Positions 8,701 to 37,500 of a DNA stretch of 41,872 nt are shown here, in pieces; the stretch's first letter is position 1; each line of letters begins with the position of its first letter. The stretch comes from Candidatus Polarisedimenticola svalbardensis (lineage in GTDB: Bacteria; Acidobacteriota; Polarisedimenticolia; Polarisedimenticolales; Polarisedimenticolaceae), in NCBI GenBank assembly GCA_014764515.1, contig JACXWD010000012.1, forward strand, positions 1-41,872, written 5' to 3'. Below the pieces are notes generated by a model. It had not been told where the DNA came from. It ran no database searches and was given only the letters and a program-made list of their open reading frames with translations. A program made the translations under genes and the position numbers.

Positions 8701-8933
8701 CCTCCCTGCTCCGGGACGGCGAGACCCGGGGCCGGCTGATTACCGGTGAAGCTCTGGGCACCTGGGGCCTGTTCGAGGACGAGCCCAGGCAGGTCACCGT
8801 GCAGGCAGTGGAACCGATGCAGGTATTACGCATAGACCGCTGGGGCTTCGACCAGCTCCTGTTTGAACATCCGGAAGTCTCCCGTTCCCTGATACGGCTC
8901 ATGGTGAAACGGCTCAGGAATATGACGCGATGA
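5748..8933 (+). CDS. NTT-type nucleotide-transporter domain fused to HEAT repeats and a cyclic-nucleotide-binding domain
   Basis: 1061 residues in three parts. Residues about 25-430 are an MFS-like membrane domain of 10-12 hydrophobic helices, with the ATP/ADP translocase-like opening 'LLLGLYLFLVIATYLIAKSVRDGLFL' shared by NTT proteins of chlamydiae, plastids and some free-living bacteria. Residues about 440-905 are helical HEAT-type repeats (for example LLPDLLQDREQQVVEAAASSAGAIGS). Residues about 928-1061 are a cNMP-binding domain (FPEGAELCRQNDPAGDLFIVLSGSASLL, ITGEALGTWGLFEDEPRQVTVQA). Free-living bacterial NTT-HEAT fusions are known; whether they transport nucleotides is largely untested. 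The cNMP phosphate cassette here (EALGTWGLFEDEPRQVTV) lacks the canonical GE-RAA Arg-Ala-Ala, so cAMP binding is doubtful. The gene overlaps the receiver gene by 4 nt (ATGA), suggesting a membrane sensor or transporter with its own signalling partners. Confidence 0.88.
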   Translation: MDNAPVADQVKQYLLRISALKPGEAGKTLLLGLYLFLVIATYLIAKSVRDGLFLDRYGAFKLPYVIIGIAVAVGIFVAVYIRLARRIEPTRLVVGTLVLFISNLVLFWWMIRAGVGWVYPTIYIWAGMYGAIAPAQVWTLANDVFTTRQAKRTFGIVGSGGILGAIFGSYLTREFALRIGTTSLLLIMALLLLLAAIVVLALSRHRIAADAREGRSAAPRHMMDSLKLISASPHLRLIAGLVFITALATTMADFQFKAVAVEKLAGDPDRLTAFFGTFYGTVGVLSFVVQFLITSRLLRRLGLGGSILLLPLALFAASILLIPTMALYAAVMLKGSDAAMKHSVDRSTRELAYLPVDRRIKIHVKSAIDMVVDRLGDGTGGVILLVLISLFGFGLRGVIYANLVFIVAWLFIAVRLRASYLRELSRSIREGRIEIGSWDEALAGSEMLDALGDALESGDQPRVLAALDLVARNPSWDFRQVLNRLATKGCEEVRARATAILLRPEEPDLPVGIAGTFQEEDRALFSECIDFMAADGFEEKEALANTILRRAGGSARGVWVALMLRRLGDEFLPFGRALLEHLAHADSTTSSREAAATAIGMMPLSSDLSALLPDLLQDREQQVVEAAASSAGAIGSDSMLRLLVEQLGRQAGRLAARQAFLARGDEVIPMLTECIREPALPMAIRRHIPSLLGAIGSERAVCALLTVLDDPERSLSSAAREALYRHRLPRPEIPLVSRQRVEDKAMELARRYRDLGTHLEEVRLVSDGDPAARALLVDTLEEARGRERNALFQVLSLYYPPADIQNCRRSMQEHDMERRSNAEELMDNLSPGRLWHAILPILYPETAVRRKERHTGPGPDLEQSLAALARDPDPWISACALNLAAGGGHNRLVEIARERDMHPDYRVREAARRTGGGGQNMVTESAGVFDKIMALKNVDLFSGAPTEQLSLIAALARIVEFPEGAELCRQNDPAGDLFIVLSGSASLLRDGETRGRLITGEALGTWGLFEDEPRQVTVQAVEPMQVLRIDRWGFDQLLFEHPEVSRSLIRLMVKRLRNMTR

Positions 8934-9388
8934 ACGACGACTACAAACCGAAAATCCTGGTGGTGGACGACGAACCGATGGTCACCCGGACCCTGGAAGG
9001 GGTTCTCCGTATGGACGGAACCCTGGAATGCACGGCGGTGAACCGGCCGGCGGAAGGCCTGGACCACCTGGGGAAATCCCAATTCGACGTTATCCTGAGT
9101 GACTTCATCATGCCTGAACTGGACGGCCTGGAATTCCTGTCCAAGGCCCGCGAACTGCAGCCGGAAGCGTCCCGCATCCTGCTGACCGGGTATGCAGACA
9201 AGGAAAGCGCCATCCGTTCCATCAACGAAATCGGTTTGTACCAGTACATTGAGAAACCGTGGCACAACCAGCAACTGCTGATGATCCTGCGCAACGCCGC
9301 CGAGCGGACCTGCCTGCTGCGGCGACTCAACAACGGCGAGGGCTCGGATGGCGAGCTGCGCCAACAAATATGGAAGATGTTGATCTGA
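8930..9388 (+). CDS. Stand-alone receiver-domain response regulator
   Basis: 152 residues. A complete receiver fold: acidic pair D13/D14, phosphoacceptor D58 in VILSDFIMP, the switch Thr in ILLTGYAD, and Lys in YIEKPW. After the receiver only about 30 residues remain, so no DNA-binding or enzymatic output is present. The IEKPW sequence and the tail after it resemble the receiver part of HD-GYP/RpfG-type and other 'EKPW' regulators. Its start overlaps the stop of the transporter fusion (ATGA), and the kinase gene starts 2 nt after its stop. It is therefore translationally coupled in a three-gene operon and most likely receives phosphate from that kinase. Confidence 0.92.
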   Translation: MNDDYKPKILVVDDEPMVTRTLEGVLRMDGTLECTAVNRPAEGLDHLGKSQFDVILSDFIMPELDGLEFLSKARELQPEASRILLTGYADKESAIRSINEIGLYQYIEKPWHNQQLLMILRNAAERTCLLRRLNNGEGSDGELRQQIWKMLI

Positions 9389-9390
9389 TC

Positions 9391-10554
9391 ATGGCTGAAG
9401 ATTGCCCCCTTGAGCATTTCATCGACCCTTTAAGCCGCCTGGACATCGGTCGCCGGATCCTCCGGCAGAACCGGCTATCGACGGAGCGGTTCGGCGACGC
9501 CGGGGGCAGGACCTGCCACGAGGCCCATTTCAACCGTGACGAGCCGTGCGAAGGCTGCCTGTTCCAGAACGTGGTGGACGGCGGCCGGGCCGAGCGCTGG
9601 TACCTGGCCGATCGCGACGAAGACGGCAAGCCACCCTCCTATTACGAGATCAGCCTGATCCCTGTCGTCGATGAAGACGGCAAGGTCACCGCGGTACAGG
9701 AAGTGATCCGGGACGCCACCGCCACGGTGGCGGTAGAGCAACACCTGATCCAGCTGTCGGAAAATCTCGGCCACCAGACCCATAAGCTTCGCAAGGATCT
9801 GGCCGAGCTGCACAAGGCCCAGGCCGCCCTGATCCAGACCGAAAAGCTGGCGTCCCTGGGCAAGCTGGCTGCCGGCCTGACCCACGAGATCCATACGCCA
9901 CTGGGAACCCTGGTAGCCAACCTGGACGTGTTGAGGTACGAGATCAACGGCATGAAGGCCGAACTCACCGGCCAGGACGGCGTTTCGGAACGGCTCCAAC
10001 GGATGGAGGAGCTGCTGGAACTCCATGACATGGCCACGTCAAGGATTCAGACCATCATCCGTTCTCTCAGGGAGTTCGCCCACCTGGACCGGGCGGTGAT
10101 GGAAACCGTCGATCTTCACGAGGGCATCGAATCGGCACTGAACCTCCTGACCTACGAGATCAAGCAGCGGATCGAGATCGAGCGCCACTACGGCAAAATC
10201 CCGCCGGTGCAATGCCGGCCCGACGCCATGAACCAGGTGTTCATGAACCTGCTTCAGAACGCCGTGCAGGCGATCCCCGACATGGGCCGGATCCGGATCG
10301 CCACACGCCTCGAAGGCGATGGCCAGATTGTGCTGGAGTTCGAGGACGACGGCAAGGGGATTCCGGCGGACCGGCTTGAGCAGATCTTCGACCCGGGGTT
10401 CACCTCCAAACCGAGAGGGGTGGGGAGCGGCCTGGGGCTGGCCATCGCGCACCAGACCATCACCGGGCACGGTGGCACCATCGACGTGCGCAGCAAGCCT
10501 GGAGAGGGAACACGCTTTACCCTGGTGCTGCCCCTGGTTCAGGAACCGGTCTGA
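9391..10554 (+). CDS. Soluble PAS histidine kinase with a Cys-rich sensor segment
   Basis: 387 residues from the ATG at 9391; an in-frame ATG at 9370 would overlap the receiver gene. No transmembrane helix is visible, so it acts in the cytoplasm. The PAS-like N-terminus carries TCHEAHFNRDEPCEGC, a Cys-x14-Cys-x2-Cys set resembling PAS domains that may bind metal or a cofactor or sense redox. A coiled-coil follows, then the H box LTHEIHTPLG (His165), the N box NLLQNAVQAI, G1 DDGKGIP, the F box FDPGFTSK and G2 GSGLGLAIAH. All catalytic boxes are intact. It probably autophosphorylates and passes phosphate to the receiver encoded just upstream. The 3' end overlaps the convergent phosphatase-kinase gene by 16 bp. 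Confidence 0.92.
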   Translation: MAEDCPLEHFIDPLSRLDIGRRILRQNRLSTERFGDAGGRTCHEAHFNRDEPCEGCLFQNVVDGGRAERWYLADRDEDGKPPSYYEISLIPVVDEDGKVTAVQEVIRDATATVAVEQHLIQLSENLGHQTHKLRKDLAELHKAQAALIQTEKLASLGKLAAGLTHEIHTPLGTLVANLDVLRYEINGMKAELTGQDGVSERLQRMEELLELHDMATSRIQTIIRSLREFAHLDRAVMETVDLHEGIESALNLLTYEIKQRIEIERHYGKIPPVQCRPDAMNQVFMNLLQNAVQAIPDMGRIRIATRLEGDGQIVLEFEDDGKGIPADRLEQIFDPGFTSKPRGVGSGLGLAIAHQTITGHGGTIDVRSKPGEGTRFTLVLPLVQEPV

Positions 10555-12419
10555 GAACAGCCTTCAAGGAGTGCGTCCCGTCTCACTTCCACAGCCTTGA
10601 TCTGGTCCTTGTCCAGCCAGCCTCGGAGCACCTTCTTCAGGTTGCCGCTCTCCAGGTTCTTTAGAGCGGCCTCCATCTCCGGCGCCAGCACCCACCTGCC
10701 TTCAGGGAACCAGGCCTTGAGGTCGGTTTCCAGCGTAAACGCCCTGGAATGATCGATGAGGGCGATTTTGCCTTCCACCGGAATGTGGAGGATGTCGCTC
10801 TCCTTGCGGTCCATGTTCCCGATCAAGGCATCAAAAACCTTGCCGGCCTCGAGCTGCAGCTTGATCGCTTCATCGTGACCCGGCGGCAGACCGTACTCCC
10901 TTGCACCCTGGGCGTCCAAAGCGTGCTCCACAAAATACTGCAGCGAGCACGGCACGTTGACGCCGGACTTTCGCAGCACCGTGACCGGCACCAGGTTCAG
11001 ACCGAGCCTGCGGTCCAGGCGGTAGGCGGCTATTTCGTGCTGATAGCGGTCACCCGGCTCCTGGACGTTCTTGCAAACGCCTCGGACCCGCTTCTTGTCC
11101 TTGCGGAATTCCATGAGCATCGGCCGGGTGCTGCCCTTCCCCAACCGGCGAACGGATTGCACCTTGCCGGACTCCAGCAGGTTCTCGAGGACAAGGTCCG
11201 ACAGCTGGGGCACGGTGGACAGCGCCCCTTCTCCTTCAGGAGGCTCGATGGTGGCCAGGGCCAGCTCTCCGGTCCGTGCATCGAATACCCGGACCTCGTT
11301 GTCCTCGATCACCAGGGCCTGGGGGGCGCCGCCCCCGGGATAGGCCATACCGACGTCGGCGCGGAACAGTTTGCCGCCGAACCGGGACGTGATGTGCCCT
11401 TCCTTCGCGATGGAGTGCCCAACCACCATGGCCCGGCCACCCAGCGTTTCGAGACAGGCGGCTACACGCTCCCGCTCCACCCGCTCGGCTTCCAGGGAGT
11501 TGCCTCTGTACCACACCGGGCCTTCCGGGGAGACCGCCGGAGATTTCAGGATCTCGCGGAGGGCGCCGGCCGCCTCCTTCTCCACCTTGTTGGCCATTCC
11601 GGACATAACCTCTGCGGCGATCCCCATGGTCCGGCGGAAATCATCGGAAACGGTCACTTCGCCCGACTCGATGAGCACTTCGCGCAGTTTCCAGTAGTTC
11701 CGGATCCCGTTTCTAACCGACTGGTTGATCCGTTCATACCCCAACCCGGCCGTTTCCTCGGTGAGCCCCCCGTGTACGAACACAAAGCCGTTGAGACGGA
11801 GGATGACGTGCTGGTCCAGCAGCCAGTTGGAATAGACGCCGTCCGGTCCGAAGGCGGAACGTCTTGCGAAGTAGCCGGGAGGGTACGTGTCTTCAAATCT
11901 GCGCTGGAAGTTCTCCCGGTTGAGACCTTCTCCCCGGATCTGTCCGTAGAACCGCTTGGATGCTTCCCGGCGCTGGTCCGGATCCTCTTCATCAATGAAC
12001 GCTTCGTACCCTTCCTGAGGCACGTAGCGCAGGTCCTGCATCATGTTCATGACCTCGTGGTTCCCCAGGAGTACGTGAACCCGGCCATCCGCCTCTTCCG
12101 CTTCCCCCTGCAGACGGCGCACGAGATCCAGCAGCTGCCGCTCCTGCGGCCCCCGGTCGGTCATATCGCCTACGAAAACCAGGTGGGTATTTCCTCCGGC
12201 CCAGCGCAGATCCTCGTCAACAAGTTCGAGGCCGAACAGCACCAGTTGAACCTGGGCGAATCCGCCGTGAGTGTCCCCCAGGGCGACGATCCGCGGCACC
12301 CCCTCCCAGGTCCAGGGCGACGTCTCCATGGGGCCGGTGAACTCCTCCCCGGCGAACGAGGGCAGGGCCGCGATGAGCAGCAAAACGACCAACAGTACCG
12401 ATCGTCCCGGATGTCGCAA
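10539..12419 (-). CDS. Exported metallophosphoesterase fused to a Fam20/PI4K/HipA-like kinase domain
   Basis: 626 residues starting at a TTG with GAAGGAGG 6 nt upstream. A signal peptide (RSVLLVVLLLIAALPSFA, cleavage near residue 23) predicts export. Residues about 42-375 are a calcineurin-type phosphatase: GDTHGG (D49, H51), GDMTDRGP, GNHE, VHGGL and VGHS supply the two-metal site of PPP/Shewanella-like phosphatases. Residues about 415-610 look like an atypical kinase: a glycine-containing LGKGSTRP loop, candidate catalytic Lys450 in GVCKN, a Glu in the following helix (HEIAAYRLDRRLG), DALIGNMDR with Asp537, and a metal-binding Asp556 in LIDHSRAF. The usual Asn after 'GNxDRxxx' is Asp here. 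The kinase call is by motif only. If correct, one exported polypeptide carries opposing phosphorylation activities. I know of no characterised example. Confidence 0.82.
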   Translation of the reverse strand: MRHPGRSVLLVVLLLIAALPSFAGEEFTGPMETSPWTWEGVPRIVALGDTHGGFAQVQLVLFGLELVDEDLRWAGGNTHLVFVGDMTDRGPQERQLLDLVRRLQGEAEEADGRVHVLLGNHEVMNMMQDLRYVPQEGYEAFIDEEDPDQRREASKRFYGQIRGEGLNRENFQRRFEDTYPPGYFARRSAFGPDGVYSNWLLDQHVILRLNGFVFVHGGLTEETAGLGYERINQSVRNGIRNYWKLREVLIESGEVTVSDDFRRTMGIAAEVMSGMANKVEKEAAGALREILKSPAVSPEGPVWYRGNSLEAERVERERVAACLETLGGRAMVVGHSIAKEGHITSRFGGKLFRADVGMAYPGGGAPQALVIEDNEVRVFDARTGELALATIEPPEGEGALSTVPQLSDLVLENLLESGKVQSVRRLGKGSTRPMLMEFRKDKKRVRGVCKNVQEPGDRYQHEIAAYRLDRRLGLNLVPVTVLRKSGVNVPCSLQYFVEHALDAQGAREYGLPPGHDEAIKLQLEAGKVFDALIGNMDRKESDILHIPVEGKIALIDHSRAFTLETDLKAWFPEGRWVLAPEMEAALKNLESGNLKKVLRGWLDKDQIKAVEVRRDALLEGCSQTGS

Positions 12420-12516
12420 ATCAGGCCTCCTTCAATTAGCTTAATGCCTGGATCGGGAATTACGCAATCGAGACGATCCGGACGGCTCTGATAAGATCGT
12501 CCGGGGGAGCAGCTCA

Positions 12517-13888: not shown

Positions 13889-14845
13889 ATGAACTTCGGA
13901 CTGACATTACTGGCCGGCCTGATCGTCCTCCTGGCCGGGGGCGAACTGCTGGTGCGTGGCGCATCCGCCCTGGCAAGGAACCTGGGGGTCTCGCCCTTCG
14001 TGGTCGGGCTGACCGTGGTCGCCTTCGGCACCAGCGCTCCGGAACTGGCGGTGAACGTCTCTGCCGCCCTGAGTGGGAATAGCGACATCACCTTCGGCAA
14101 TGTCATCGGCTCCAACATCGCCAACATCGGCCTGATCATCGGACTCACAGCCCTGATGAAGGCGTTCACGGTGCGCCGATCCATCGTCAGCCGGGAGATC
14201 CCGGTGATGCTGGGGGTGACCGCACTGGGGATCGTACTGGCCCTCGATGCCCGGTTCGGCCGGGTGGACGGTGCCATCCTGCTGGTCTGTTTCGTCTGCT
14301 TCCTGTTCGTCACCACCCGGACCGCCCTGAAGGACCGGAATAAGGATCGGTTCCTGGAGGGGGCCGAGGGCGAAGAGGAAGCCCACAAGGTGATGCACTG
14401 GGCGCCGGCCTCCCTGCTCACCCTGGCCGGCCTGGCCGGGGTACTTCTGGGAAGCGACTGGACGGTGGACGGCGCCTCCGGCGTCGCCGTCAGCCTGGGG
14501 ATGAGCCAGGCAGTCATCGGCCTCACCATCGTCGCCCTGGGCACAAGCCTTCCGGAACTGACCACTTCCCTGTTCGCCGTGCGGAAAGGTCAGGCCGAAC
14601 TGGCCATCGGGAACGTGGTCGGCTCCAACATCTTCAACCTGCTGTTCATCCTGGGGGTCTCGTCGGGCATCCGGGCTGTGGAGGTGCCGCGAGGCGGATT
14701 CATGGACCTCATCGCCATGGCAATCTTCTCGGTGGTGTTGCTCCCATTCGCCATGAGCCGGCAGCGACTGGCGCGGCACGAGGGCCTGCTGCTTCTGGCC
14801 GGTTACCTGGCCTACATGGCCTGGCGGACCTTGTCCACCAGTTGA
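13889..14845 (+). CDS. Sodium/calcium exchanger family protein (YrbG-like)
   Basis: 318 residues from the ATG at 13889. Two inverted repeats of the cation/Ca2+ exchanger fold are clear. The alpha-1 repeat has VVAFGTSAPELAVNVSAA and GNVIGSNIANIGLI; the alpha-2 repeat has IVALGTSLPELTTSLFAV and GNVVGSNIFNLLFI. The Glu of each 'GTSxPEL' lies in the ion-binding site. Ten or so transmembrane helices flank a short acidic cytoplasmic loop (EGAEGEEEAHKV). It would exchange Na+ for Ca2+ across the inner membrane. It is divergent from nnrU, and its 3' end overlaps the convergent hybrid kinase by 34 bp. Confidence 0.93.
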   Translation: MNFGLTLLAGLIVLLAGGELLVRGASALARNLGVSPFVVGLTVVAFGTSAPELAVNVSAALSGNSDITFGNVIGSNIANIGLIIGLTALMKAFTVRRSIVSREIPVMLGVTALGIVLALDARFGRVDGAILLVCFVCFLFVTTRTALKDRNKDRFLEGAEGEEEAHKVMHWAPASLLTLAGLAGVLLGSDWTVDGASGVAVSLGMSQAVIGLTIVALGTSLPELTTSLFAVRKGQAELAIGNVVGSNIFNLLFILGVSSGIRAVEVPRGGFMDLIAMAIFSVVLLPFAMSRQRLARHEGLLLLAGYLAYMAWRTLSTS

Positions 14846-16380
14846 GTCGTGGAAAACGGTTTGCGCAGCAGGTGGACGTCTTCGATGGCGAAGCCGTGGC
14901 GACTCAGGATGTCGTCGGTGTAGCCGGACATGAACAGGGCCGGCAGCTCCGGCCGGTTCTCCAGGATCCTGGCGACCAGATCGGGACCGTTCATCACAGG
15001 CATCATCACATCGGTCAGGATCAGGTCCACGTCATTGCCGTCCTTCCGGAACATGCGCAATGCAGCGGCGCCGTTGCGCGCTTCCAGGACCTGGTACCCT
15101 TCCGCCTCCAGGGCCTGTTTCACCAGGCCGGCCACAGTCGGCTCATCTTCGACCACCAGCACCGTGCCGGTACCGTGTTCCCGTTCGGTGTCTTCATCAC
15201 ATGGTTCCGCCGTAACCGGCAATTCACTGCAAACCGGGAGGTAAATTTCCAGAACCGCACCTTCACCTTCCCTGGTCACCAGCTTCACATCCCCACCGCT
15301 CTGTTTGACCATGCCGTACACGCTGGACAGGCCCAGGCCGACTCCCCGACTTTCGCCTTTGGTCGTAAAGAACGGTTCAAACGCGGCGGAGGCGACTTCC
15401 GGGGACATGCCGCAGCCGCTATCCTCTACCCGCAGGCAGGCATAGTCGCCTGGTTCAAGATCCAGCCCGCTGCCGCTTTCCATCGATACCCGTGATGTAT
15501 CGACCGTCAGGGTTCCACCCTGAGGCATGGCGTCCCGGGCGTTGGTCACCAGGTGCAGGATGACCTGTTCCATCTGGCCCGGATCGACCCGCACTGGAAT
15601 CCCGCCCTTATCGTGTCGGATGCTCAGATGAATCTGCTCACCGATCAGGCGGCGGATCATTGTGTTCAGGTTGTCGACGATGGAGTGCAACTCCACCACT
15701 TTCGGCTTCAGGTCCTGCTTGCGTCCGAACGCCAGAAGATGTGAGATCAGACCTGCCGCCTCTTCACCGCCGGCCCGGATCGCCTCGACCTGCTCCAGCA
15801 GTTTCGGCGAGTTGGCCAACTGGCGGGCGAGGAGATCGGCATAGCCCAGGACGGAGACCAGGATGTTGTTGAAATCGTGGGCGACTCCCCCGGCCAGTTT
15901 GCCGATCGCCTCCATCTTCTGGGCGTGCCGGAGTTGCAGCTCCAGGTCCTTGCGCTCGGATATCTCCCGCCATACGACATGGATCAGGACCTTGTCCCCT
16001 TCGGGAACAGGCGTCAGAAGAACCTCTACCGGGAACACTTCCCCGTCGGCGCGCTGGTGGTCCCATTCGAAGCGATGGCTGCCCCGCTCCATGGCGATGG
16101 CGATCATCTCGCTGGCCTTCTCGAACGACCGCCTGCCGTCCGGCTGAAGCTGAGGGGACAGTTCGGACGGGTGGGTCTGGAGCAGTTCTTCCTTGGTCCG
16201 ATACCGAAGCATTCGAACGGTCGCCTCGTTGCAATCCACGAAGGTCTCACCATCGATAACCAGGATGGCGTCGGCGGAGCGTTCAAACAGCAGCTGGTAT
16301 TTATTCTGACGGTCCGGGCTTTCGCCGGGGTGGCGTCGGGGATGCACGTCCTCCCTGGACCCATTTTCATTCGATGCCAT
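14812..16380 (-). CDS. Hybrid sensor histidine kinase (PAS-HisKA-HATPase-receiver)
   Basis: 522 residues from the ATG at 16380, chosen because AGAGGGTTCC precedes it; an upstream TTG at 16401 has no SD. Order: PAS (about 27-145, LLFERSADAILVIDG... ISERKDLE), H box GGVAHDFNNIL (His168), HATPase with VTNARDAM, EDSGCGM, FEPFFTTK and GVGLGLSSVYG, then a C-terminal receiver with DLILTDVMMP (Asp457) and LRKPFS. The AHDFNNIL form with a 'FFTTKGExxGVGLGL' lid is typical of hybrid kinases in environmental bacteria. It has no transmembrane segment, so it is cytoplasmic. No output regulator is nearby. It lies downstream of the polysaccharide cluster on the same strand. Confidence 0.95.
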   Translation of the reverse strand: MASNENGSREDVHPRRHPGESPDRQNKYQLLFERSADAILVIDGETFVDCNEATVRMLRYRTKEELLQTHPSELSPQLQPDGRRSFEKASEMIAIAMERGSHRFEWDHQRADGEVFPVEVLLTPVPEGDKVLIHVVWREISERKDLELQLRHAQKMEAIGKLAGGVAHDFNNILVSVLGYADLLARQLANSPKLLEQVEAIRAGGEEAAGLISHLLAFGRKQDLKPKVVELHSIVDNLNTMIRRLIGEQIHLSIRHDKGGIPVRVDPGQMEQVILHLVTNARDAMPQGGTLTVDTSRVSMESGSGLDLEPGDYACLRVEDSGCGMSPEVASAAFEPFFTTKGESRGVGLGLSSVYGMVKQSGGDVKLVTREGEGAVLEIYLPVCSELPVTAEPCDEDTEREHGTGTVLVVEDEPTVAGLVKQALEAEGYQVLEARNGAAALRMFRKDGNDVDLILTDVMMPVMNGPDLVARILENRPELPALFMSGYTDDILSRHGFAIEDVHLLRKPFSTTQLVDKVRQAM

Positions 16381-16487
16381 GGAACCCTCTGTTGCGTTCA
16401 ATTTTCTGGTCTGAATAAAGATAGGTTCTGCCGCGGGGCAGGGGCCAGCGGAACCTGATTGCCGGATATAATGGCTTTATTCCGCCG

Positions 16488-19923: not shown

Positions 19924-21393
19924 TTGAGACGACTATCGATCTGCCTGTTCGTTTTTTGCAGTCTGGCCGCACTCCTGGCCCCTGCCCTCGGTTCCGATGA
20001 GCAACTCCTGGAGCGCTCGGTGGTGCGGATCGTAAACTATGCCCAGAGGGGCACCTGGTACACACCGTGGGACCTTTCCGGAGTGGGTGAATCTTCCGGC
20101 ACCGGGTTCGCAATCGGCAACGGTCTGGTCATGACCAACGCCCACGTGGTCAGTGACTCCCGCTATCTGCTCATTTTTGTTTACAACGACCCGGAACCCC
20201 GGCAGGCGGAAGTGGTGCATATCGCACACGACGCCGATCTGGCTCTGATCCGCCCGGTAAAGCGCGGCGCCCTGGACGATCTGCCGGCCCTGGAATTCGG
20301 AGGCATGCCGGCCCTGCGCACCACGGTGGACACCCTGGGCTATCCCGCCGGCGGCATGCGGTTGTCCTCGACGCGGGGCGTCGTTTCCCGGATCGAGGAA
20401 CAGCTCTACGTCCACTCGGGCAAGGACCTCCATCTCACGGTGCAGACCGACGCCGCCATCAACCCTGGAAACAGCGGTGGTCCCGTGGTTCAGGACGGCA
20501 AGGTGGTCGGTGTAGCCTTCCAGGGGAACGCCGGCCTGGAAAACACAGGGTTCTTTATCCCGATGGAAGTGATCCAGCGCTTCCTGAACGATGTTCAGGA
20601 CGGCCGGTACGACGGATACCCGGAGCTGGGTGCGGAGACCTCCGGGCTGGAAAACGTGGCCGCCCGGGCCCAGGCCGGAATGAAAACGGACGAAACCGGT
20701 GTAAGGGTGGACTCGGTTTACCGGGGCAGCAGTGCGGAAAACGGGCTGGAGGCAGGAGACGTCATCCTGGAGGTGGAGAACAGGACCGTGGCCAATGACG
20801 GCACGGTGGACGACGGCGGCGGCAGGATCTCCTACGGTCTCCTGGTGGACCGCAAACAGATCGGCGAGTCGGTGCCGATCCGGCTCCTGAGGGACGGCCG
20901 GCGGATCGAGGTGGACGTTCCCCTGACCAGCTTCCCCATGGGGGACGCCCACGGCCATGCCTACGACCGCCTGCCCCGCTACTACATTTACGGTGGACTG
21001 GTATTCGTTCCATTGAACCTCGAGATGCTCAAAACCTTCGGAGGTGACTGGCACGTGAAGGCCGACAAGGAAATCGTTTACGAGTTTCTGGTCCGGCCGA
21101 TGATCCAGCCGGAACTGATCCAGCAGGAGCGGGTGGTCCTGCTGCGCCGGCTCAAGCATCCGGTGAACTCGGACATGGCTTTCTACCGGAACCAGGTGGT
21201 GGAGAAGGTGAACGGCAAGACCATCACATGCCTGGAGGATCTGGTGGAAACTCTCGAGAATCACCAGGGCGACTTCCACCTGATCGAATTTTCCAACCGG
21301 CGCCGGATCGGCGTGATCAACCGCCTTGATGCAGACGCCGCACACCGTGAAATACTTGGACGGTACGGCATTCAGGAGGATCGCAACCTGTGA
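19924..21393 (+). CDS. DegP/HtrA-like exported serine protease with PDZ domain(s)
   Basis: 489 residues from a TTG at 19924 with GAGGGAA upstream; a signal peptide (LSICLFVFCSLAALLAPALG) predicts export. The trypsin-like domain has an intact triad: His74 in TNAHVV, Asp105 in DADLALI and Ser184 in NPGNSGGPV. A PDZ domain follows (about 255-330: GVRVDSVYRGSSAENGLEAGDVILEVENRTV). The rest (about 335-489) resembles the C-terminal part of plant/bacterial Deg proteases with a second, degenerate PDZ (YRNQVVEKVNGKTITCLEDLVETLENH). It would degrade or process envelope proteins. The last codons overlap the start of the next gene (GTGA), so the two are made together. Confidence 0.92.
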   Translation: MRRLSICLFVFCSLAALLAPALGSDEQLLERSVVRIVNYAQRGTWYTPWDLSGVGESSGTGFAIGNGLVMTNAHVVSDSRYLLIFVYNDPEPRQAEVVHIAHDADLALIRPVKRGALDDLPALEFGGMPALRTTVDTLGYPAGGMRLSSTRGVVSRIEEQLYVHSGKDLHLTVQTDAAINPGNSGGPVVQDGKVVGVAFQGNAGLENTGFFIPMEVIQRFLNDVQDGRYDGYPELGAETSGLENVAARAQAGMKTDETGVRVDSVYRGSSAENGLEAGDVILEVENRTVANDGTVDDGGGRISYGLLVDRKQIGESVPIRLLRDGRRIEVDVPLTSFPMGDAHGHAYDRLPRYYIYGGLVFVPLNLEMLKTFGGDWHVKADKEIVYEFLVRPMIQPELIQQERVVLLRRLKHPVNSDMAFYRNQVVEKVNGKTITCLEDLVETLENHQGDFHLIEFSNRRRIGVINRLDADAAHREILGRYGIQEDRNL

Positions 21394-22922
21394 AGATCCT
21401 GGGAACGATTATCCTCGCACTGGTCCTTTGGATGCCGGCGTATTCTGCGGAAGAAGCTGCACCCACGCCCGGCGAACCGGACGCCGATCGCTACGCCAGA
21501 AGCGTCGTCGGACTGGAAGTGACCTACCAGATGTGGGACGAGGACAGGCCGTGGGCCAAGACAACCCCTCAAAGCCGCAGTGGCTCCGCAGTACTGCTGG
21601 AAGGGTCTTACCTGCTCACCGACGCCCAGATGGTGGATCACGCCACCTTGATCCAGTTGGCTACATTCGGACGGACCCGGCCGGTGGAGCCGCGGATCGT
21701 GGCAATCGACACCGAGGTAAACCTGGCGTTGTTGCAGGTCGATGACCCTGGCGCCCTGGAAGGCCTGGAGCCGATCGCCCTGGCCGAGTCGACCCCTACA
21801 ACCGGCACCCTTATGATGGCCCGATGGCGGCGCCAGCAACTGGAAATGGCCGCCGCGAGGATCACCCGGTTCGAGGTCCGTCGCGGATGGGGTGGAGGGG
21901 TGGAGCATGCATTCCTCTACATGCGCACCGACATGGCCGGCGGAGGCTGGGGTGAGCCGGTGTTCGAAAACGGAGCCCTGGCCGGCGTCACCGTGTCCCA
22001 GTCCGAAATGTTGGGCCGGGCCGTGCCGGTGGAGATCCTGCGAGGTTTTATCGAACGGGCCAAGGCGCCGGGACCTTATATCGGCTTCCCCGCCCTGGGT
22101 GTCATGTGGCAGACCAACAGCGACCCTGCCGTCGCCAGTCTGCTGGGACAGGAAGGAGAGCCTCGGGGCATCCTGATCCGGCAGGTTCCCTGGGGAACCT
22201 CGGCATGCGGTGTTCTGAAGCCGAGGGATCTCCTGCTGGAACTGGACGGCCAGACCCTGGACGCCGAAGGCTATTACCACCATCCTCGATTCGGGCGGCT
22301 GCGATTCGGCCAGCACCTGGCGGAAAACTACCAGCTGGGCGACCAGATCCAGGTTCGGGTTTTACGGGACCGGCAGGAGCAGGAGCTGAGCATGACCCTC
22401 AGGGGGTATCCATCGGCTCTGGACCTGATCCCGTACCATCGCACCGGCCAGCCGTCCTACGTCATCGCAGGCGGACTGGTCATTCGGGAACTGGACGTAC
22501 CGTACCTGCGGACCTGGGGGAAGGACTGGGACAAGAACGGACCGATCGGACTGCTGCACTACTTCTCGGTTTCCCGCGAGGGCCAGGCGCCGGACAGCCG
22601 CAGAAAGATCATCCTCATGATGATCCTGCCGTCGGCCTATAACGCCGGTTACCAGTATTCACGGGACGACGTCATCGACAGCATCAACGGCCGTCCGGTA
22701 GACAGCATCACTGACGTGGTCGCTGCGTTCAATGAACCGATGGACGGGTTCCATGTTCTCGAACTGTCGCCGGGATCGAGCCGGCGGCAGATCGTTCTGG
22801 ATGCCGCGGCCTTCGATTCCGCAACCGAGGCGATCCTCGAGGAGTACGGCATCCCTGCAGCCCTGCACATTTCGGAACAGCCTCCAGCCGATGGCGATGG
22901 AGACTGCCCCGGAGATTTCTAG
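21390..22922 (+). CDS. DegP-like pseudoprotease, catalytic triad lost, paired with the upstream protease
   Basis: 510 residues from a GTG at 21390 with AGGAGGA upstream, overlapping the previous stop by 4 nt. A signal peptide (MKILGTIILALVLWMPAYSA) predicts export. The layout matches its neighbour: trypsin-like domain, PDZ (ILIRQVPWGTSACGVLKPRDLLLELDG), then the same Deg-type C-terminal part (YVIAGGLVIRELDVPYLRTWGKDW; YSRDDVIDSINGRPVDSITDVVAAFNEP). All three catalytic positions differ: His is Gln80 (TDAQMV), Asp is Asn111 (TEVNLALL), and the GNSGG loop is GGGWGEPV with Trp187 where Ser is expected. The frame is uninterrupted over 1.5 kb, so it is kept as a non-enzymatic partner rather than a decaying gene. 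Confidence 0.88.
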   Translation: MKILGTIILALVLWMPAYSAEEAAPTPGEPDADRYARSVVGLEVTYQMWDEDRPWAKTTPQSRSGSAVLLEGSYLLTDAQMVDHATLIQLATFGRTRPVEPRIVAIDTEVNLALLQVDDPGALEGLEPIALAESTPTTGTLMMARWRRQQLEMAAARITRFEVRRGWGGGVEHAFLYMRTDMAGGGWGEPVFENGALAGVTVSQSEMLGRAVPVEILRGFIERAKAPGPYIGFPALGVMWQTNSDPAVASLLGQEGEPRGILIRQVPWGTSACGVLKPRDLLLELDGQTLDAEGYYHHPRFGRLRFGQHLAENYQLGDQIQVRVLRDRQEQELSMTLRGYPSALDLIPYHRTGQPSYVIAGGLVIRELDVPYLRTWGKDWDKNGPIGLLHYFSVSREGQAPDSRRKIILMMILPSAYNAGYQYSRDDVIDSINGRPVDSITDVVAAFNEPMDGFHVLELSPGSSRRQIVLDAAAFDSATEAILEEYGIPAALHISEQPPADGDGDCPGDF

Positions 22923-30279: not shown

Positions 30280-32043
30280 ATGCGATTTTACATAGTCATT
30301 ATTGCTGCCGTACTTGCCGGACTGCTGGCCTTGGCCGGCACCTCCTCTTCCGCCATGGCTGCGGAACAGATCTGGTATCTCCACGGCGAAGATCTGCCGC
30401 TGGCAACCATGTCCCCTGTCGCTCCGACGGCCCCGGCACTGACCAATAACGATCCCGGCCGCGATGATGCCCTCGGCCTGCTGGTCGCCAAGGGCGGCGC
30501 CGGCATGGCCGAGACCAACCCGGTCAAATACCAGCAATGGGTCACCGCACCTGGAACCGTCACCCTGGACCGGTCCGCCGGTCTGGTGTTCTGGGCTGCC
30601 ATGAAAAATTTTGCTACGCCCAGGCGAGGGATCGTGGAAGCCTACCTGATGGACTGTGAACCGTCCGGCGGAGGCTGCGTCGAGATAGCCCACGGGACCC
30701 GGGACATCCAGGACTGGTCCAACGGTCTGGGGTTCTGGAGCAAGCACTCCATCGACTTCGGTCTGGTTAGCCATACCATCGCAGCAGACCGTTCCCTGGC
30801 GGTCCGGATCGTGGTCGGCGCCAACTCGGACGACGACATGATGTTCGCATACGATACCGCTGGATTCCCCAGTCACCTCACCGGCAACGCACGGGGGGAT
30901 ATCGGGATCGACTGCGATTTCTCCGACTGGGGCAACGGCGAAGGAACGGAATTCATCCTGGCAGACCAGGGCGGCCCCGATGACTACCGCAGCCCGACCC
31001 GCCTGGACCTGACCCAGGTCGCCGTGGCAACCAACCTCGTGGACGCCCTGCAGTTCCTGATCGCCTTCGACGATATCCCGGTAGCCGGTGGCACCGCCGG
31101 CACCCTGTTCGACACCAATCTGGACGGCAACGTGAACTTTGCGCTGGTTGCCAGCGTCGATGACGCCGAGGTGGTGCTGGAGCTGTATGCCTGCGACGAC
31201 TCCATGACCGAGGGCTGCGGCTCAGCCGGCCTGTTGCGAACCTACGATGACACGAGCTACTGCGCCGGGACCGGTATGGGACCCTGGAACAACGATACGC
31301 TGATCGAGGCGGACATCCCGTTCGCCGACCTGGCGACCGGCGGAAGCCCGATGTTCATCACCTCCCTGATCTCCTACGCCGCAGCCAGTTTGCTGACATC
31401 CCCCAAGGACTCGGTGTTCGGCACAGGCGACGAGAATTACCAGGCTTCGATCTATTTCGACCCGCTCCAGGGGTTCGCACAGATCGTAGGTTCGGTCGGC
31501 ACCGGATTCACGGTCCGCCGTTCAGGTGACCCCGCAACGGTGCGTACGGCGGTTGACCACGCAACAACAACCATTTCGCCCTATGACGATCTTCCCGGCA
31601 CACTGGATGATGGCGAGATCTACTTCTACGTCGTGGATAAGACCGGTGGTATGCCGGTTCCCCTGTCCGCCGACTCCAACCGGTACGACAGCGCGATCCG
31701 GCTCGGTTTCGACGACGAGAACGGGCTGAGCGCGGCGGTGGACCCGCTGGCCTCACAGGCGGCCCTGGATCGGACCAGCGTCACCGCCGACGGCACCAGT
31801 TACGCCACGCTGACGATAACGCCCCGTGACTCCCACGGTGTGGCCATCGGCGCCGGATGCGACATCGAGTTCAGCTCCATAGCCCTCTCGCCGGGAGCCG
31901 CAGCGGCACCGCTGAAGGACAACCGGGACGGGGCCTACACGCTGCTCATCGCCGCCACCGGTCCAGGGACCGGCCAACTCGTGGTAACGGTGGAGGGCAT
32001 CACCCTGACCGACCGACCAACGGTCACCTTCACCAACCCGTAG
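30280..32043 (+). CDS. Secreted protein with a C-terminal bacterial Ig-like domain
   Basis: 587 residues. A signal peptide (FYIVIIAAVLAGLLALAGTSSSAMA) predicts export. The N-terminal 370 residues are beta-rich with Asp/Asn-rich loops (DTNLDGNVNFALVAS, DNDTLIE-like turns) and a few cysteines, of no family I recognise. A middle region (TISPYDDLPGTLDDGEIYFYVVDKTG) resembles a fibronectin-type or dockerin-like joint. The last 95 residues are an invasin-type Ig domain (DRTSVTADGTSYATLTITPRDSHGVAIG... LVVTVEGITLTDRPTVTFTNP). No enzyme motif is seen. It is the first of the extracellular-protein genes. Confidence 0.8.
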   Translation: MRFYIVIIAAVLAGLLALAGTSSSAMAAEQIWYLHGEDLPLATMSPVAPTAPALTNNDPGRDDALGLLVAKGGAGMAETNPVKYQQWVTAPGTVTLDRSAGLVFWAAMKNFATPRRGIVEAYLMDCEPSGGGCVEIAHGTRDIQDWSNGLGFWSKHSIDFGLVSHTIAADRSLAVRIVVGANSDDDMMFAYDTAGFPSHLTGNARGDIGIDCDFSDWGNGEGTEFILADQGGPDDYRSPTRLDLTQVAVATNLVDALQFLIAFDDIPVAGGTAGTLFDTNLDGNVNFALVASVDDAEVVLELYACDDSMTEGCGSAGLLRTYDDTSYCAGTGMGPWNNDTLIEADIPFADLATGGSPMFITSLISYAAASLLTSPKDSVFGTGDENYQASIYFDPLQGFAQIVGSVGTGFTVRRSGDPATVRTAVDHATTTISPYDDLPGTLDDGEIYFYVVDKTGGMPVPLSADSNRYDSAIRLGFDDENGLSAAVDPLASQAALDRTSVTADGTSYATLTITPRDSHGVAIGAGCDIEFSSIALSPGAAAAPLKDNRDGAYTLLIAATGPGTGQLVVTVEGITLTDRPTVTFTNP

Positions 32044-32386
32044 AGCCGATCCATACGAACTAGCGGGTTACCTGGAACGTCGTGGTAGCTCTCATTCCGC
32101 GCCTTCAGGGGAGCGAGACGGTAGTCCGCTCCGAAACCGGCGGTGTTCCGCTGAGCGATGGTCATACGGCCCTGGGGATCCAGGTACGGCAGGCGGAAGA
32201 TTCTGTCCCCTGGAGGAACGTTGATTTCGGAATGACCTCGAGAGAACCAACGATCGTTGACTCCTTATAACGAATTGGTAAACCGTTCCACGATACCGGA
32301 TTTTCCGTTTTTAAATAGCTCACGAATCCGCAGGGTTTCTCCTGGCACCGCTCCTGCAACTGTGCAGGCGGAGGCCCGGGAGAACC
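32044..32386. other. Intergenic region upstream of the metalloprotease gene
   Basis: 343 bp without a supported gene. It holds a palindrome AACGATCGTT (32249-32258) overlapping a TTGACT, a weak CGGA-TTT-TCCG hairpin with a T run (32297-32312), and, at its right end, the structured leader annotated separately. Nothing recognisable was found in 32044-32240. Confidence 0.5.
32334..32386 (+). promoter_or_regulatory. Structured RNA leader abutting the metalloprotease start codon
   Basis: The outer stem pairs 32334-32345 with 32376-32386 (GGTT-CTCC-GG against CC-GGAG-AACC, one bulged T, one G.T pair). The inner hairpin CCTGCA-ACTG-TGCAGG (32353-32368) sits on CCG/CGG (32348-32350 with 32369-32371). 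The fold ends exactly at ATG 32387 and encloses both SD candidates (GGAGG 32370-32374, GGGAG 32378-32382), so it could block ribosome entry until opened. The loop CAACTGT is reminiscent of cobalamin elements, but the remaining conserved boxes are absent. Confidence 0.5.
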
Positions 32387-34399
32387 ATGAAGATCAACCG
32401 ACCCAGACATGGGATCACTGTTCGATGCCGGATCGTCGTACAGACGGCTTTTCGCGCCTCCGTCCTGCTTGCCCTTCTCCTCCTGACCTCCATGGTGGTC
32501 GTCGCCGCATCCACTCCACCGGCTCAGGACCGACCGGTCAGGGAGCGCGTCGAACAGGCCGCCCGTGCGACCTATATCCACGGCATGACTGCCGAAATCG
32601 CCCGGCGTGAGATCGGTCCCGACGGCCTCCCGATTCTGCTGGAACTTCTGGAGGATCCAGCCTTCCCGAGACATGACAATGTCGTCGCGTTCATGACTTT
32701 CCTCGGCGGCAGCAACGCAACCCGGGCGCTGGAATCGTTCCTGCGCGTCCCGCCTGCGGCGACCCACAGACCGGCGGAGCAGCGGGCGTTGTTGCTGGCA
32801 CCCCAGGCTCTCGGACAGATCGCGTCACGAGGCGACAGAACCGCTCTCGATCTGCTGATGGAGATCACCGATCCGGCTTCAGGAAACGACCTGCTGCGGC
32901 AGGCTTCAACCTTGGATCGCCAGCCTGCCCGCCTCCACGCCGACCTTCTCAGGATGGCGTTCCGCGGTCTCGCATATTCGGAGACGGAGACCGCCAATCA
33001 GCGACTTCTCGATTTTGCAAGAGGCGAACTTAGAGTATCGGCTCTCCCTGACAGCCACGAGACCGCCCGGTCCGCGCTGGCTCTCCGAAACGAACTTGGG
33101 TCCAGGTCCGAGACCCTGGAACCGACCGCCGGAGGGTACGATCCCCCGAATACGACGGCCGGAGGCGTCCTGGACAGCGCCGGCCGTGTACATGACACCG
33201 GCCTGACCTACGCCAATCACGTCGACGTCGGCGACCCGATGGACGACGCCCGGCTCGACGTTGTACTCGGAATCGCCTCGTTCCGCACCGGGTGCGGCGA
33301 CGATCCCGCCGACATCGCCTGCTGTGTCACCTTTTCCAGATTGAATTCCGCAGCTTCCTTCGGCGCCCCCGGGGACGGCCTGGACACCATCGATGACAGC
33401 GCTGAAATGACCTCCGTTCTCAGCGACACGTCGGCCCGGTTCAAGGTCGTCCGCGCAATCAACTACTGCGGGGGTCCGGGCATCAATATCATCGGCTGCG
33501 CGTGGCAGCCGGGGAATGGCGGCGCCGTGGTCCGGATGACCGCCGCTGAAAGCGAATCGGTACTGTGGGTTCACGAGTATGGACACAACACCGGCCTTGA
33601 CCACAGCAACAACGGTTCACGCTACCTGATGTACGGAACGAATTACGGAACGAACGACCTTCTGGACCAGCAGGAGTGCGACTCGTTCCACACTCCCCAC
33701 TCCTGGGCGGAGATCGTTCCCGACGACATCGGGGCCTGCAACGATACAGACGGCGACTTGATCCATGACGCGACCGACAACTGTCCCGCTATATCGAACT
33801 ACGATCAGCTCGATTCCGACGGGGACGGCATTGGCGACGCCTGCCAGACTTCTTCTTGCGGCAACGGCGTGATCGACGCAGGCGAGGAATGCGACGGGAT
33901 CAATCTTGGCATCCATACCTGCGCAACCGAAGGATACCGTGAAGGGCTGCTGGCATGTGACGGTTTCTGCCGTCTCGACCGCACCGGCTGTGCATGCATG
34001 GATACCGACGCAGACCAGAAGGGCGACGAAGCGATCCCACTGGGCGCCTGCGCATCGGATTGCAACGACGGCGACAGCCTGATCTGGGACACTCCTGGTG
34101 AAATTCCTACCCTGATTTTTTCCGCCGTTCTGGCAACCCTTGAATGGATCGAACCGGTTGATCCTGGCGGTTCGACATCCACGCTGGTCTTCGACGTTTT
34201 GCGTTCCACCGATCCGGCCGACTTCGAAACCGGGTCGATCTGTGTCGAATCCGATGACGGTGCGGATACCCTGGCGGTAGATCCGGAAATTCCAGGATCT
34301 GGTATCGTGTTCTATTACCTGGTCCGAGCCGAAAACGCCTGCCCCAAAGGCTCCGGACCGCTGGGATCCGGCCGGTCAGGCAGAACCTGCGGTTCCTGA
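32387..34399 (+). CDS. Secreted metzincin-like zinc metalloprotease with Ca-binding and MopE-like repeats
   Basis: 670 residues. A long n-region precedes a signal helix (SVLLALLLLTSMVVVAAS). Residues about 55-230 are helical, HEAT-like. The catalytic motif HEYGHNTGLDH (His396, Glu397, His400, His406) is the zinc site of metzincin-type proteases, with a possible Met-turn in RYLMYGTN. C-terminal modules follow: a thrombospondin-3-like DTDGDLIHDATDNCP... DSDGDGIGDAC, a CGNGVIDAGEECDG Cys-rich motif, a MopE-like ACASDCNDGDSLIWD, a fibronectin-like stretch, and a final FYYLVRAENACPKGSGPLG module shared with the next gene. It likely acts outside the cell. Expression may be controlled by its leader hairpin. 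Confidence 0.88.
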   Translation: MKINRPRHGITVRCRIVVQTAFRASVLLALLLLTSMVVVAASTPPAQDRPVRERVEQAARATYIHGMTAEIARREIGPDGLPILLELLEDPAFPRHDNVVAFMTFLGGSNATRALESFLRVPPAATHRPAEQRALLLAPQALGQIASRGDRTALDLLMEITDPASGNDLLRQASTLDRQPARLHADLLRMAFRGLAYSETETANQRLLDFARGELRVSALPDSHETARSALALRNELGSRSETLEPTAGGYDPPNTTAGGVLDSAGRVHDTGLTYANHVDVGDPMDDARLDVVLGIASFRTGCGDDPADIACCVTFSRLNSAASFGAPGDGLDTIDDSAEMTSVLSDTSARFKVVRAINYCGGPGINIIGCAWQPGNGGAVVRMTAAESESVLWVHEYGHNTGLDHSNNGSRYLMYGTNYGTNDLLDQQECDSFHTPHSWAEIVPDDIGACNDTDGDLIHDATDNCPAISNYDQLDSDGDGIGDACQTSSCGNGVIDAGEECDGINLGIHTCATEGYREGLLACDGFCRLDRTGCACMDTDADQKGDEAIPLGACASDCNDGDSLIWDTPGEIPTLIFSAVLATLEWIEPVDPGGSTSTLVFDVLRSTDPADFETGSICVESDDGADTLAVDPEIPGSGIVFYYLVRAENACPKGSGPLGSGRSGRTCGS

Positions 34400-34471
34400 C
34401 AAAAGCCGTACGGCCGATCCCCGCCCTCACCGTGATAAAATCAGCGTATATTCAGGGGTTATAGACTCACC

Positions 34472-34498
34472 TCGCCCCTTTCGCTGGGGCGATTTTGT
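34472..34498 (+). terminator. Intrinsic terminator after the metalloprotease gene
   Basis: TCGCCCC (34472-34478) pairs with GGGGCGA (34486-34492) around a 7-nt loop and is followed by TTTTG. It lies 73 nt after the metalloprotease stop and ends 18 nt before the next start codon, so it could equally act as an attenuator for the propeller gene. Confidence 0.7.
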
Positions 34499-34515
34499 CA
34501 AAGGCAGGGGGCATC

Positions 34516-37500
34516 ATGAACCGGTGGTCCGATCCGCGAAAACTCGTTTTTGCGTTATTGCTGTTCCTTCTGCCTCTGTGCGCTCTCGCGGCGTCCACAG
34601 CAGAATCCGACCGCGAGGTCCTTTTACAACCGGCCGGCGGGCCCGAATCGATTCCCGAACGATATCAGGAACGCATTCTGCCGTATCTCCGACTCAAACC
34701 CTCGCCTGGCGCACCTTCCCGCCCGGCCGAAGGCGGTACCGACGGCTTGCCGTTCCAGGACCTGGCCAGCGATGAAATTCAAATCGACCTCGGTCTCCCT
34801 ACGTCCGGAGGGCTGGACCACTCCGTCATCGTTCTCGGCGGCGGAGTTGGAGCGATCTGCGTACTCGAACTGGAAAACTACCTGCTCCGTTCCCTGCGGT
34901 CCGCTGACGGGGGGCAATCGTTCGATGGCGAACTCGATGTCACCGGAGGCCCGGGCGCCGGAGCCGTTCTGGCCTATGCCGCCGATCTCGCTGTGGATGA
35001 TGCCGTCCATGTCGCTCTGGTGGTCGCGGACCCGAGCGGCGATCGGGGGCTGCGATTCGTCCGCAGTCCCGATCGCTGCCAGAGTTGGGATGCTCCGGTC
35101 GATCTGATCATGAGCGCAGATCCCGCACATGGTGTAACCGCTGTAGCGGTCGGATCCGGCGGCGCCGGATTTGCCTCCGTCGCGTTCATCGGCCGGGACG
35201 GGCTGGCTCCTTACGCCATCACCACCGCCAACGGCGGCTCGACCTGGACCGCCCCGGTCCGTCTCGATCCCGGAAACGGCGGGACGTTCGCAACGACTCC
35301 CTCGATCAGCCTTGATGTCGATGCGGCCGGCAACACCGTCTATGCCGCCTGGGACCAGGACCGTGGCTCCGGCTCACAGATCTGGACGACGCGCTCCACC
35401 GATGGAGGTGCGACCTTCGTCGTCGAGCAAAATCTGGACCCGGTGACACCTTTCCGAGGTGAATCGAGCCGACCCTCGGTTCAGGTGGTGGAGGGCGGCG
35501 AGCTGCTCATCGCATACTGGGACATCTCCAGCGGAAACCGGATGTTCGTCGCCCAATCGAAGAACCAGGGCACGACATTCTCCTCAACCTACGAGGAGAA
35601 TGTCGGTGGTGGGGACGCACTGGGAGTGCCGACATTCTGTTATGTAACCGGTGACACGACGCTGCACCTGTTCTGGACGATCAGCGATAGCTTGTGGCAC
35701 TCGCGTTCGGCCAACAACGGCGACTCATTCGACGACGGCTCCACCCTCTCGACTACCGCCGATGCCGACCCCGACAATTGGCGCCCCGCCACCCGGGTCC
35801 AGTGCGCCAAGATCGGAAACCGCGCCTGGGTGGTCGGATCGTCCGATTACCGCAACGATACTTACGCCGGAACCCGCACCGACGTGTACGTACACCGCAG
35901 CACCGATGACGGCGTCACCTGGCTCCCCGCCGAGCGGGCCGATACCGACGGTGCAGGTGGAGCGGAGTCATCGTTCGGAGGACTGGTTGCAACGACAGGT
36001 GGCGATTTCTTCACCGCCTGGAGCGACCGCCGCGATGACGCCGGCCGTGGGGAAAACCTGTACGGCATCGTCTACAGTGATGGCGTCGGCTTCGCCCTTT
36101 CGGATGCCAGGATCGACTCGGACGCCGGCGTGGCCTCCGCCGCCACCCTGCAGGAGCCGGTGGTCGCCTCGGACGGCGCCACGGGCGTCTACGTGGCGTT
36201 TTCCGGCCGAGGGCACGGTCACGAACACGACATCTGGGTCACCCGCAGCGCCGACGGAGGGTACACCTTCGACTCCGCGGTACGGGCCAGCACCACGCCG
36301 GCCGGCGACCGTGTTCAGTTCGTGCCTTACCTGGCGGCAACCCCGGACGGCAACGTCTACCTCGCCTGGCTGGCCGACGACCCGATCTCCGGCCAGCGCC
36401 AGCTCCGGTTCAACCGCTCGTCCGACTTCGGCGCCACATGGCAGCCGGTGGACCAGGTCCTGGATGCCATATCCCACCCGGTCGGTTACTTCCTCGAGTC
36501 GTTCGACTTCCCGAACATCCAGCTGCGGGCGGTGGACGGCGGGTTGGTGTACGTCGCCTGGTCGGACCTCGCCACCGTGTTCCTGGCCCGTTCGGAGAAC
36601 GGAGGCGCATCATTCACCATTGAAGACGTCGACCAGGATTCCCGGAATTTCAACCGGTACCCGGCGCTGTGCGCCCAGGGTGACCAGGTCGTACTGGCCA
36701 TCATGTCCCCCGACACCGCCTTCATAGACTTCAGCGTGTGGGGCACGGTCAGCGCCGACCGGGGCGCCACATGGACCACCATGGAGCAACTCAGGAGCGA
36801 ATCAACACCGGAACGAGGCATTTTCCCCGTACTCTCCTGCGACGGCGGGAGCGGGGCCCTGGTCGTGTGGGGCGACCTCCGAAACAATTCGACATGGCAG
36901 TTGTTCTCCAACCGCTGGGACGGAGCCTGGCAGGGCGACGTGGTCGTCAACGGGCCGGCTGCACTGGACCACTTCTGGCCCACCGTCGCCAGAGCAGGTA
37001 CGAGCGACGTCGTCGTCTCGTACCAGGACTTCGACGGTGCCGTCTACGCCGCCCGCTCCCAGGACGGCGGCGCCACCTTCCCTGCCCACGTCCGCCTCGA
37101 CAACGCAGCTCCCGAACCGGCCGCCGTTTCGGAGAGCCCGCGAATCACGGGGGACGGGGACGACCTGTGGGTATTCTGGATGGACGACAGTTCCGGCGAC
37201 CGCTCCATTGCGGTGCGGTGGTCCCGGGACGGCGGCGGTGCGTGGAGCCCCGCCCGGCGCGTCAATCGCGAAACACCGGACGGGGCGCTGCCCAACGGCT
37301 ACTACCCGATCAACGCAACCGCAGCCGCGCTTCCGGATGCAGGTTTCCTGGCCTGGGGCGGTGACCGCAACGACCCGGGAGGCGACGTCCTGACCAACGC
37401 CGCCGACCTCACAGACGGCGACCGGGACACGGTCGATGCTGGCGCGGATTGTGACGATACCGACCCGACAGCCTGGGCGATTCCAACACCTGTGGCGAAT

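Follow-up and report, generated by a model that had tools for sequence, protein, structure and literature searches.

The exported Fam20 kinases, the PI4KII lipid kinases, the Shewanella-like PPP phosphatases and the NTT nucleotide transporters are the described proteins closest to the locus presented here. Conserved cysteines form the disulfides of Fam20. The bacterial periplasm is usually taken to be without ATP, so the phosphate donor of an exported bacterial kinase is in question. In parasites and plastids, NTT proteins carry nucleotides, ATP/ADP among them. The NTT-HEAT(-cNBD) proteins of free-living bacteria have been described but await characterisation (Major et al., 2017, PMC5381601), and that paper gives them neither a function nor a link to an exported kinase or phosphatase. 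In the literature searched, no paper ties Fam20-like proteins, bacterial ones included, to nucleotide transporters.

The window, a stretch of 41,872 nucleotides from Candidatus Polarisedimenticola svalbardensis, encodes a protein in which a phosphatase and a kinase-fold domain are fused, convergent to an operon that begins with an NTT-HEAT-cNBD gene (Table 1). This looks like one arrangement of a three-part set, made up of an exported Shewanella-like PPP phosphatase, exported Fam20/PI4KII-like kinases, and a membrane protein of the NTT type, in most cases NTT-HEAT(-cNBD). The module itself looks undescribed and devoted to phosphorylation outside the cytoplasm. The parts of the set are known and their arrangement is new; a role in extracytoplasmic phosphorylation can be tested.

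Table 1. Features of the phosphatase-kinase locus and of the neighbouring NTT operon (positions in the window).
Feature	Position	Strand	Evidence
NTT-HEAT-cNBD membrane protein, 1061 aa	5748..8933	+	Pfam TLC 1.5e-25, HEAT_2, cNMP_binding; AtNTT1 2.6e-18; co-occurrence, clustering
Response regulator receiver protein, NTT operon	8930..9388	+	PF00072; gene order alike in L035, L041, L044
PAS-HisKA-HATPase sensor histidine kinase, NTT operon	9259..10554	+	Pfam; gene order alike in L035, L041, L044
CDS, exported phosphatase-kinase fusion, 626 aa	10539..12419	-	Open frame, homologues, family matches
Fam20/PI4KII-like kinase-fold domain, about residues 404-620	10560..11210	-	Fam20 profile, fold, conservation
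PPP/Shewanella-like phosphatase domain, residues 34-390	11250..12320	-	PF00149 E 5e-12; 2zbm E 7e-25; Z 34.3 to 1v73; conservation
Signal peptide, residues 1-24, cleavage near SFA|GEE	12348..12419	-	Sequence; hydrophobic N-termini of homologues
Shine-Dalgarno AAGGAGG, six bases upstream of TTG	12426..12432	-	Read from sequence

The fusion gene lies on the minus strand, which the initial annotation had left unsaid. It starts with a TTG codon (12419-12417), and its 3' end overlaps by 16 nt that of the convergent histidine-kinase gene, whose true start probably lies downstream of the listed GTG. Because a copy with 75% identity is found in the same genus (L005/L034) and homologues with 32-40% identity occur across the class, the open frame is a real gene. 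The possibility of a shadow or misread ORF is ruled out, as this minus-strand protein is conserved and has known domains; it is the opposite-strand frame at 10749-12491 that is the shadow. The initial annotation had taken the protein to be exported, and we agree: read by eye, the N-terminus MRHPGRSVLLVVLLLIAALPSFAGEE appears to be a Sec-type signal, which would place both domains outside the cytoplasm. The N-termini of the homologues are alike in hydrophobicity, with 56 of 66 phosphatase/kinase proteins passing a crude test and several of the ten failures being proteins incomplete at contig ends.

The N-terminal half is, as first annotated, a PPP-type phosphatase with all its metal motifs. GDxHG, GDxxDRG and GNHE, together with the His of VHGG and GHS, are complete here and in most relatives, and the metal and catalytic residues D49, H51, D85, R89, N120, H121, H216 and H335 are all in place. 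In the AlphaFold model of the fusion protein (pLDDT 89.6), this domain superposes on 1v73 with a Z-score of 34 (rmsd 2.4, 271 residues), whereas PP1 and PP5 fit it less well (Z 21). Judging from its residues, the phosphatase half is probably active.

Because a structure search with the whole protein was filled by phosphatases, the C-terminal domain was folded and searched alone. The AlphaFold model (pLDDT 92) has the kinase fold that had been predicted for it; in the PDB it comes closest to PI4KII (Z 17.9-19.1) and Fam20 (Z 16.4-18.4), with HipA (Z 10-13) well behind. The alignment confirms the positions assigned to Lys450, Asp537 (in GNMDR) and Asp556 (in LIDHS), to which E462, the alphaC Glu, and D542 can be added as key residues. 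Among solved structures, a profile built from 27 relatives finds Fam20A (7e-14), Fam20C (1e-10) and Fam20B (1e-8), then PI4KII (1e-4). The kinship first proposed, to HipA, Fam20 and PI4K, thus stands for Fam20 by fold and profile and for PI4KII by fold. HipA as nearest relative is disfavoured by its lower Z-scores and by its absence from the profile matches of the 27 relatives; Pfam HipA_2 shows weakly, under its cut-off. The kinase half reaches none of the curated kinase-family cut-offs. Pfam Fam20C scores 15.1 bits with the whole protein and 18 bits with the domain alone (cut-off 26.8), and PF00454 gives no match to the window domain at E 0.01. TIGR03843, whose named control match sits in Corynebacterium glutamicum, is the only NCBIfam model to match all 27 relatives (E below 0.001, down to 8e-21), and it scores 49-53 bits (46 bits in the genome search) against a curated cut-off of 172.4 bits. 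No cysteine occupies an invariant or near-invariant column of the 27 aligned relatives. Since every curated kinase model was missed, this is a family undescribed in the searched libraries. By sequence and predicted fold, its place is in the protein-kinase-like clan, close to Fam20, PI4KII and SCO1664.

The initial annotation had proposed looking for the same fusion in other genomes. It is present at ten further loci of the class, two of which are in genome G023 and two incomplete at a contig end, as well as in L075, L078 and L079, which come from other families of the phylum; a one-off fusion of the window genome is thereby ruled out. In a tree of 50 kinase domains the fusions are scattered over several clades. 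Separate exported kinases and separate exported phosphatases occur too. In the named genome contigs scanned, the sole relative is a phosphatase-only Acidobacteria locus (L033), and plasmid sequences gave only weak metallophosphoesterase matches. Within the genus there is a second exported phosphatase gene, at G000:C65:3-881 (L047) and on G001:C61 (L046); as L046 continues into a kinase domain before the contig breaks off, the window genome probably has a second fusion. At G004:C1:5262646-5263623 (L026, L061), a kinase gene is preceded by the remains of a phosphatase with three in-frame stops; this seems to be a former fusion that has decayed, the kinase part of which persists as a separate frame. 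Exported kinase genes also occur in arrays, with up to four at L077:7918-14743 and three domains at G023:C34:2243-6158 (L037), suggesting local expansion, perhaps with differing substrates.

Across the 50 kinase domains the metal Asp (D556) is invariant, Glu or Asp occupies position 462 in 46, and D537 is kept in 44; the position of K450 carries Lys in 32 domains and Arg in another 13. D537 is lost six times, always in a phosphatase-linked domain, either fused (L037, L042, L079) or with the phosphatase gene adjacent (L067, L070, L077), and these losses fall in two separate clades. The window protein groups with three other fusions, L034, L042 and L037, in a clade that has support of 100/99 and a long stem branch. 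D537 is kept in the window and in L034, and replaced by Ser in L042 and Gln in L037. At the metal-site Asn position (D537+5, D542 in the window), all four have Asp where most relatives have Asn, and the window and L034 have the altered loop DRxESD in common. This exchange, which the initial annotation suggested may alter the choice of metal or nucleotide, is real but not clearly exotic: the aligned Fam20C and Fam20A sequences have Glu there (DRHHYE), and an acidic residue at 542 is compatible with Fam20-type catalysis. The two stand-alone exported kinases of the window genome (L053, L054) have the canonical loops DRNTGN and DRNLGN. Decay affects the other half as well: in the fusions L038 and L043 the phosphatase motifs are broken and the kinase loop is canonical, and G023 has one fusion with broken phosphatase motifs and one that has lost D537. 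Elsewhere in the tree, a clade of stand-alone exported kinases (L050, L055-L060) has Arg for the beta-3 Lys, and the clade of L066, L072 and L074 has Gln for this Lys and Asn for the alphaC Glu; both keep the catalytic and metal Asp.

The TLC/NTT domain of the partner protein scores 90.4 bits against a Pfam cut-off of 21, and its only PDB matches are AtNTT1 and chlamydial NTT1. Lys155, Glu245 and Lys527 of AtNTT1 correspond here to Arg, a residue other than Glu, and Asp. In AtNTT1, K527 is required for ATP binding, and the K155R mutant no longer binds ADP and has lost most of its ATP binding (PMC3306366). A canonical ATP/ADP exchanger is not supported for the partner by these key residues, which it keeps only in part. 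In the window the fusion gene is outside the NTT operon; in L035 and L041 the NTT, response regulator, histidine kinase and fusion genes follow each other in one direction, and in L044 a kinase-less phosphatase takes the last place. In other families, L067, L070 and L077 have a phosphatase-kinase-NTT-kinase order with overlapping or abutting genes, and the NTT gene adjoins a stand-alone kinase in L066, L068, L069, L072 and L076. The window holds a second two-component gene near the operon, a hybrid PAS-histidine kinase-receiver at 14812-16401 on the minus strand. Further along are two adjoining trypsin-like/PDZ_3 proteases (19924-22922; protease-domain E 9e-25, the second weaker at 7e-7) and a run of surface-type genes at 30280-41867, encoding an Invasin_D3 protein, a BNR-repeat protein and a DUF7507/DUF11 repeat protein.

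Co-occurrence was counted in 396 genomes of the phylum, from lists of up to about 150 matches. Among the matches listed, a strong kinase match occurs in 77 genomes, every one of which has an NTT match too, as do 79 of the 319 genomes without the kinase (Fisher 2e-38). Relatedness is handled by the genus count only, in which, among the matches listed, the 49 genera with a kinase all fall within the 93 of 210 that have an NTT protein (3e-22). Of the 77 kinase genomes, 63 also have the phosphatase, which only four other genomes share (again among the matches listed). The genes also cluster: assuming an average genome size of 4.5 Mb, and among the matches listed, an NTT gene lies no more than 10 kb from 28 of 150 kinase genes (about 1 expected) and from 23 of 75 phosphatases (0.4 expected), and 39 of 75 phosphatases are as close as this to a kinase, fusions included (0.7 expected). 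NTT-kinase linkage is found in about 20 families of the phylum, with varied gene orders and orientations.

We give an even chance to the reading in which the window carries the three-part set with an active phosphatase half and a weak or pseudo-kinase half. The kinases would phosphorylate extracytoplasmic targets and the phosphatase would dephosphorylate them. The C-terminal half of the window protein, which keeps its presumed nucleotide- and metal-binding residues, would more likely sense nucleotide, dock the substrate or pair with partner kinases, since the catalytic loop of its lineage is decaying; most phosphorylation may then be done by the canonical stand-alone paralogues of the same genome. 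The kinase activity of the window protein is uncertain because two of the four clade members have lost D537 and all four have Asp for Asn, and sequence comparison makes a regulatory pseudokinase a serious possibility. The kinase may nevertheless be active, since D537, K450, E462 and D556 are all present. The initial annotation had proposed a bifunctional phospho-switch, of which the export and the two folds stand. That both halves are active and set the phosphorylation of a single extracytoplasmic substrate seems doubtful to us. All the phosphatase residues are there along with these four kinase residues and D542, and the kinase loop is canonical in seven other fusions of the class, of which five (L035, L036, L039, L040, L041) have an intact phosphatase too. 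Against this are the loss of D537 in the nearest relatives L042 and L037 and the altered loop and long stem of the whole clade. The phosphatase decay in L038 and L043, with the D537 losses elsewhere, further indicates that activity is not always retained in both halves at once, so in the window protein the kinase-like domain may be regulatory and the enzyme a phosphatase.

The substrate could also be other than a protein, the kinase half acting on a lipid, a glycan (as Fam20B does) or a small molecule, or for example AMPylating, and the phosphatase removing the same phosphate. PI4KII ties with Fam20 in structure (Z 19.1 and 18.4), and Fam20B is a sugar kinase, as 5xom is named; the profile, however, puts Fam20A/C ten orders of magnitude ahead of PI4KII, and the phosphatase linked to this half is nearest to a protein tyrosine phosphatase. 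Neither this preference nor this kinship fixes the substrate, and we regard such a target as rather improbable. As to the NTT partner of the three-part set, its role at the inner membrane may be to supply nucleotide or to sense it. Supply would be an attractive reading since NTT genes cluster with exported kinase genes, but the window NTT protein lacks residues on which this exchange depends in AtNTT1. A complete and dedicated reversible system, with exported Fam20-like kinases, an exported PPP phosphatase either fused to these or clustered with them, and an NTT-HEAT protein putting nucleotide into the periplasm, is a tentative proposal that we would not favour at present. If true, this route would solve the problem of the phosphate donor of exported kinases and give the NTT-HEAT family a role; as an NTT match is found in every kinase genome (among the matches listed), often adjoining, both are testable. 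The link could instead reflect shared ancestry and neighbourhood only, with no functional tie to nucleotide supply. The 79 NTT-positive genomes without the kinase (among the matches listed), the convergent orientation of the window fusion and the key NTT residues that are not kept are in line with this. The NTT protein in 77 of 77 kinase genomes (among the matches listed) argues against it, and a single inherited neighbourhood fails to explain linkage in so many families and gene orders. We consider it unlikely.

Compared with known systems, the phosphatase half is like the Shewanella-like PPP phosphatases (cold-active protein tyrosine phosphatase, 1v73/2z72/2zbm), with an E-value of 7e-25, a Z-score of 34 and every metal residue, and plant RLPH2 (5vjv) is remoter. 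The solved Shewanella-like enzymes have no kinase-fold domain, whereas the window phosphatase is exported and fused to one. Fam20A, Fam20B and Fam20C resemble the window domain as the best profile matches among solved structures (Z 16-18), in being exported, and in the order Lys, Glu, GNMDR Asp, metal Asp. The window family differs from them in staying below the Pfam Fam20C cut-off, in its want of invariant cysteines, in its fusion to a phosphatase and in the loss of the catalytic Asp in some members. With the PI4KII lipid kinases the fold is common (Z 18-19), but the window protein is exported, the profile E-value is only 1e-4 and there is no PI3_PI4_kinase match. All 27 relatives match the TIGR03843/SCO1664 family, yet at 49-53 bits for a cut-off of 172 bits. 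The partner gene has exactly the architecture of the NTT-HEAT-cNBD proteins of free-living bacteria (PMC5381601). Finally, in mixing intact with decayed halves, these bacterial proteins parallel the pair formed by Fam20A, a pseudokinase, and the kinase Fam20C.
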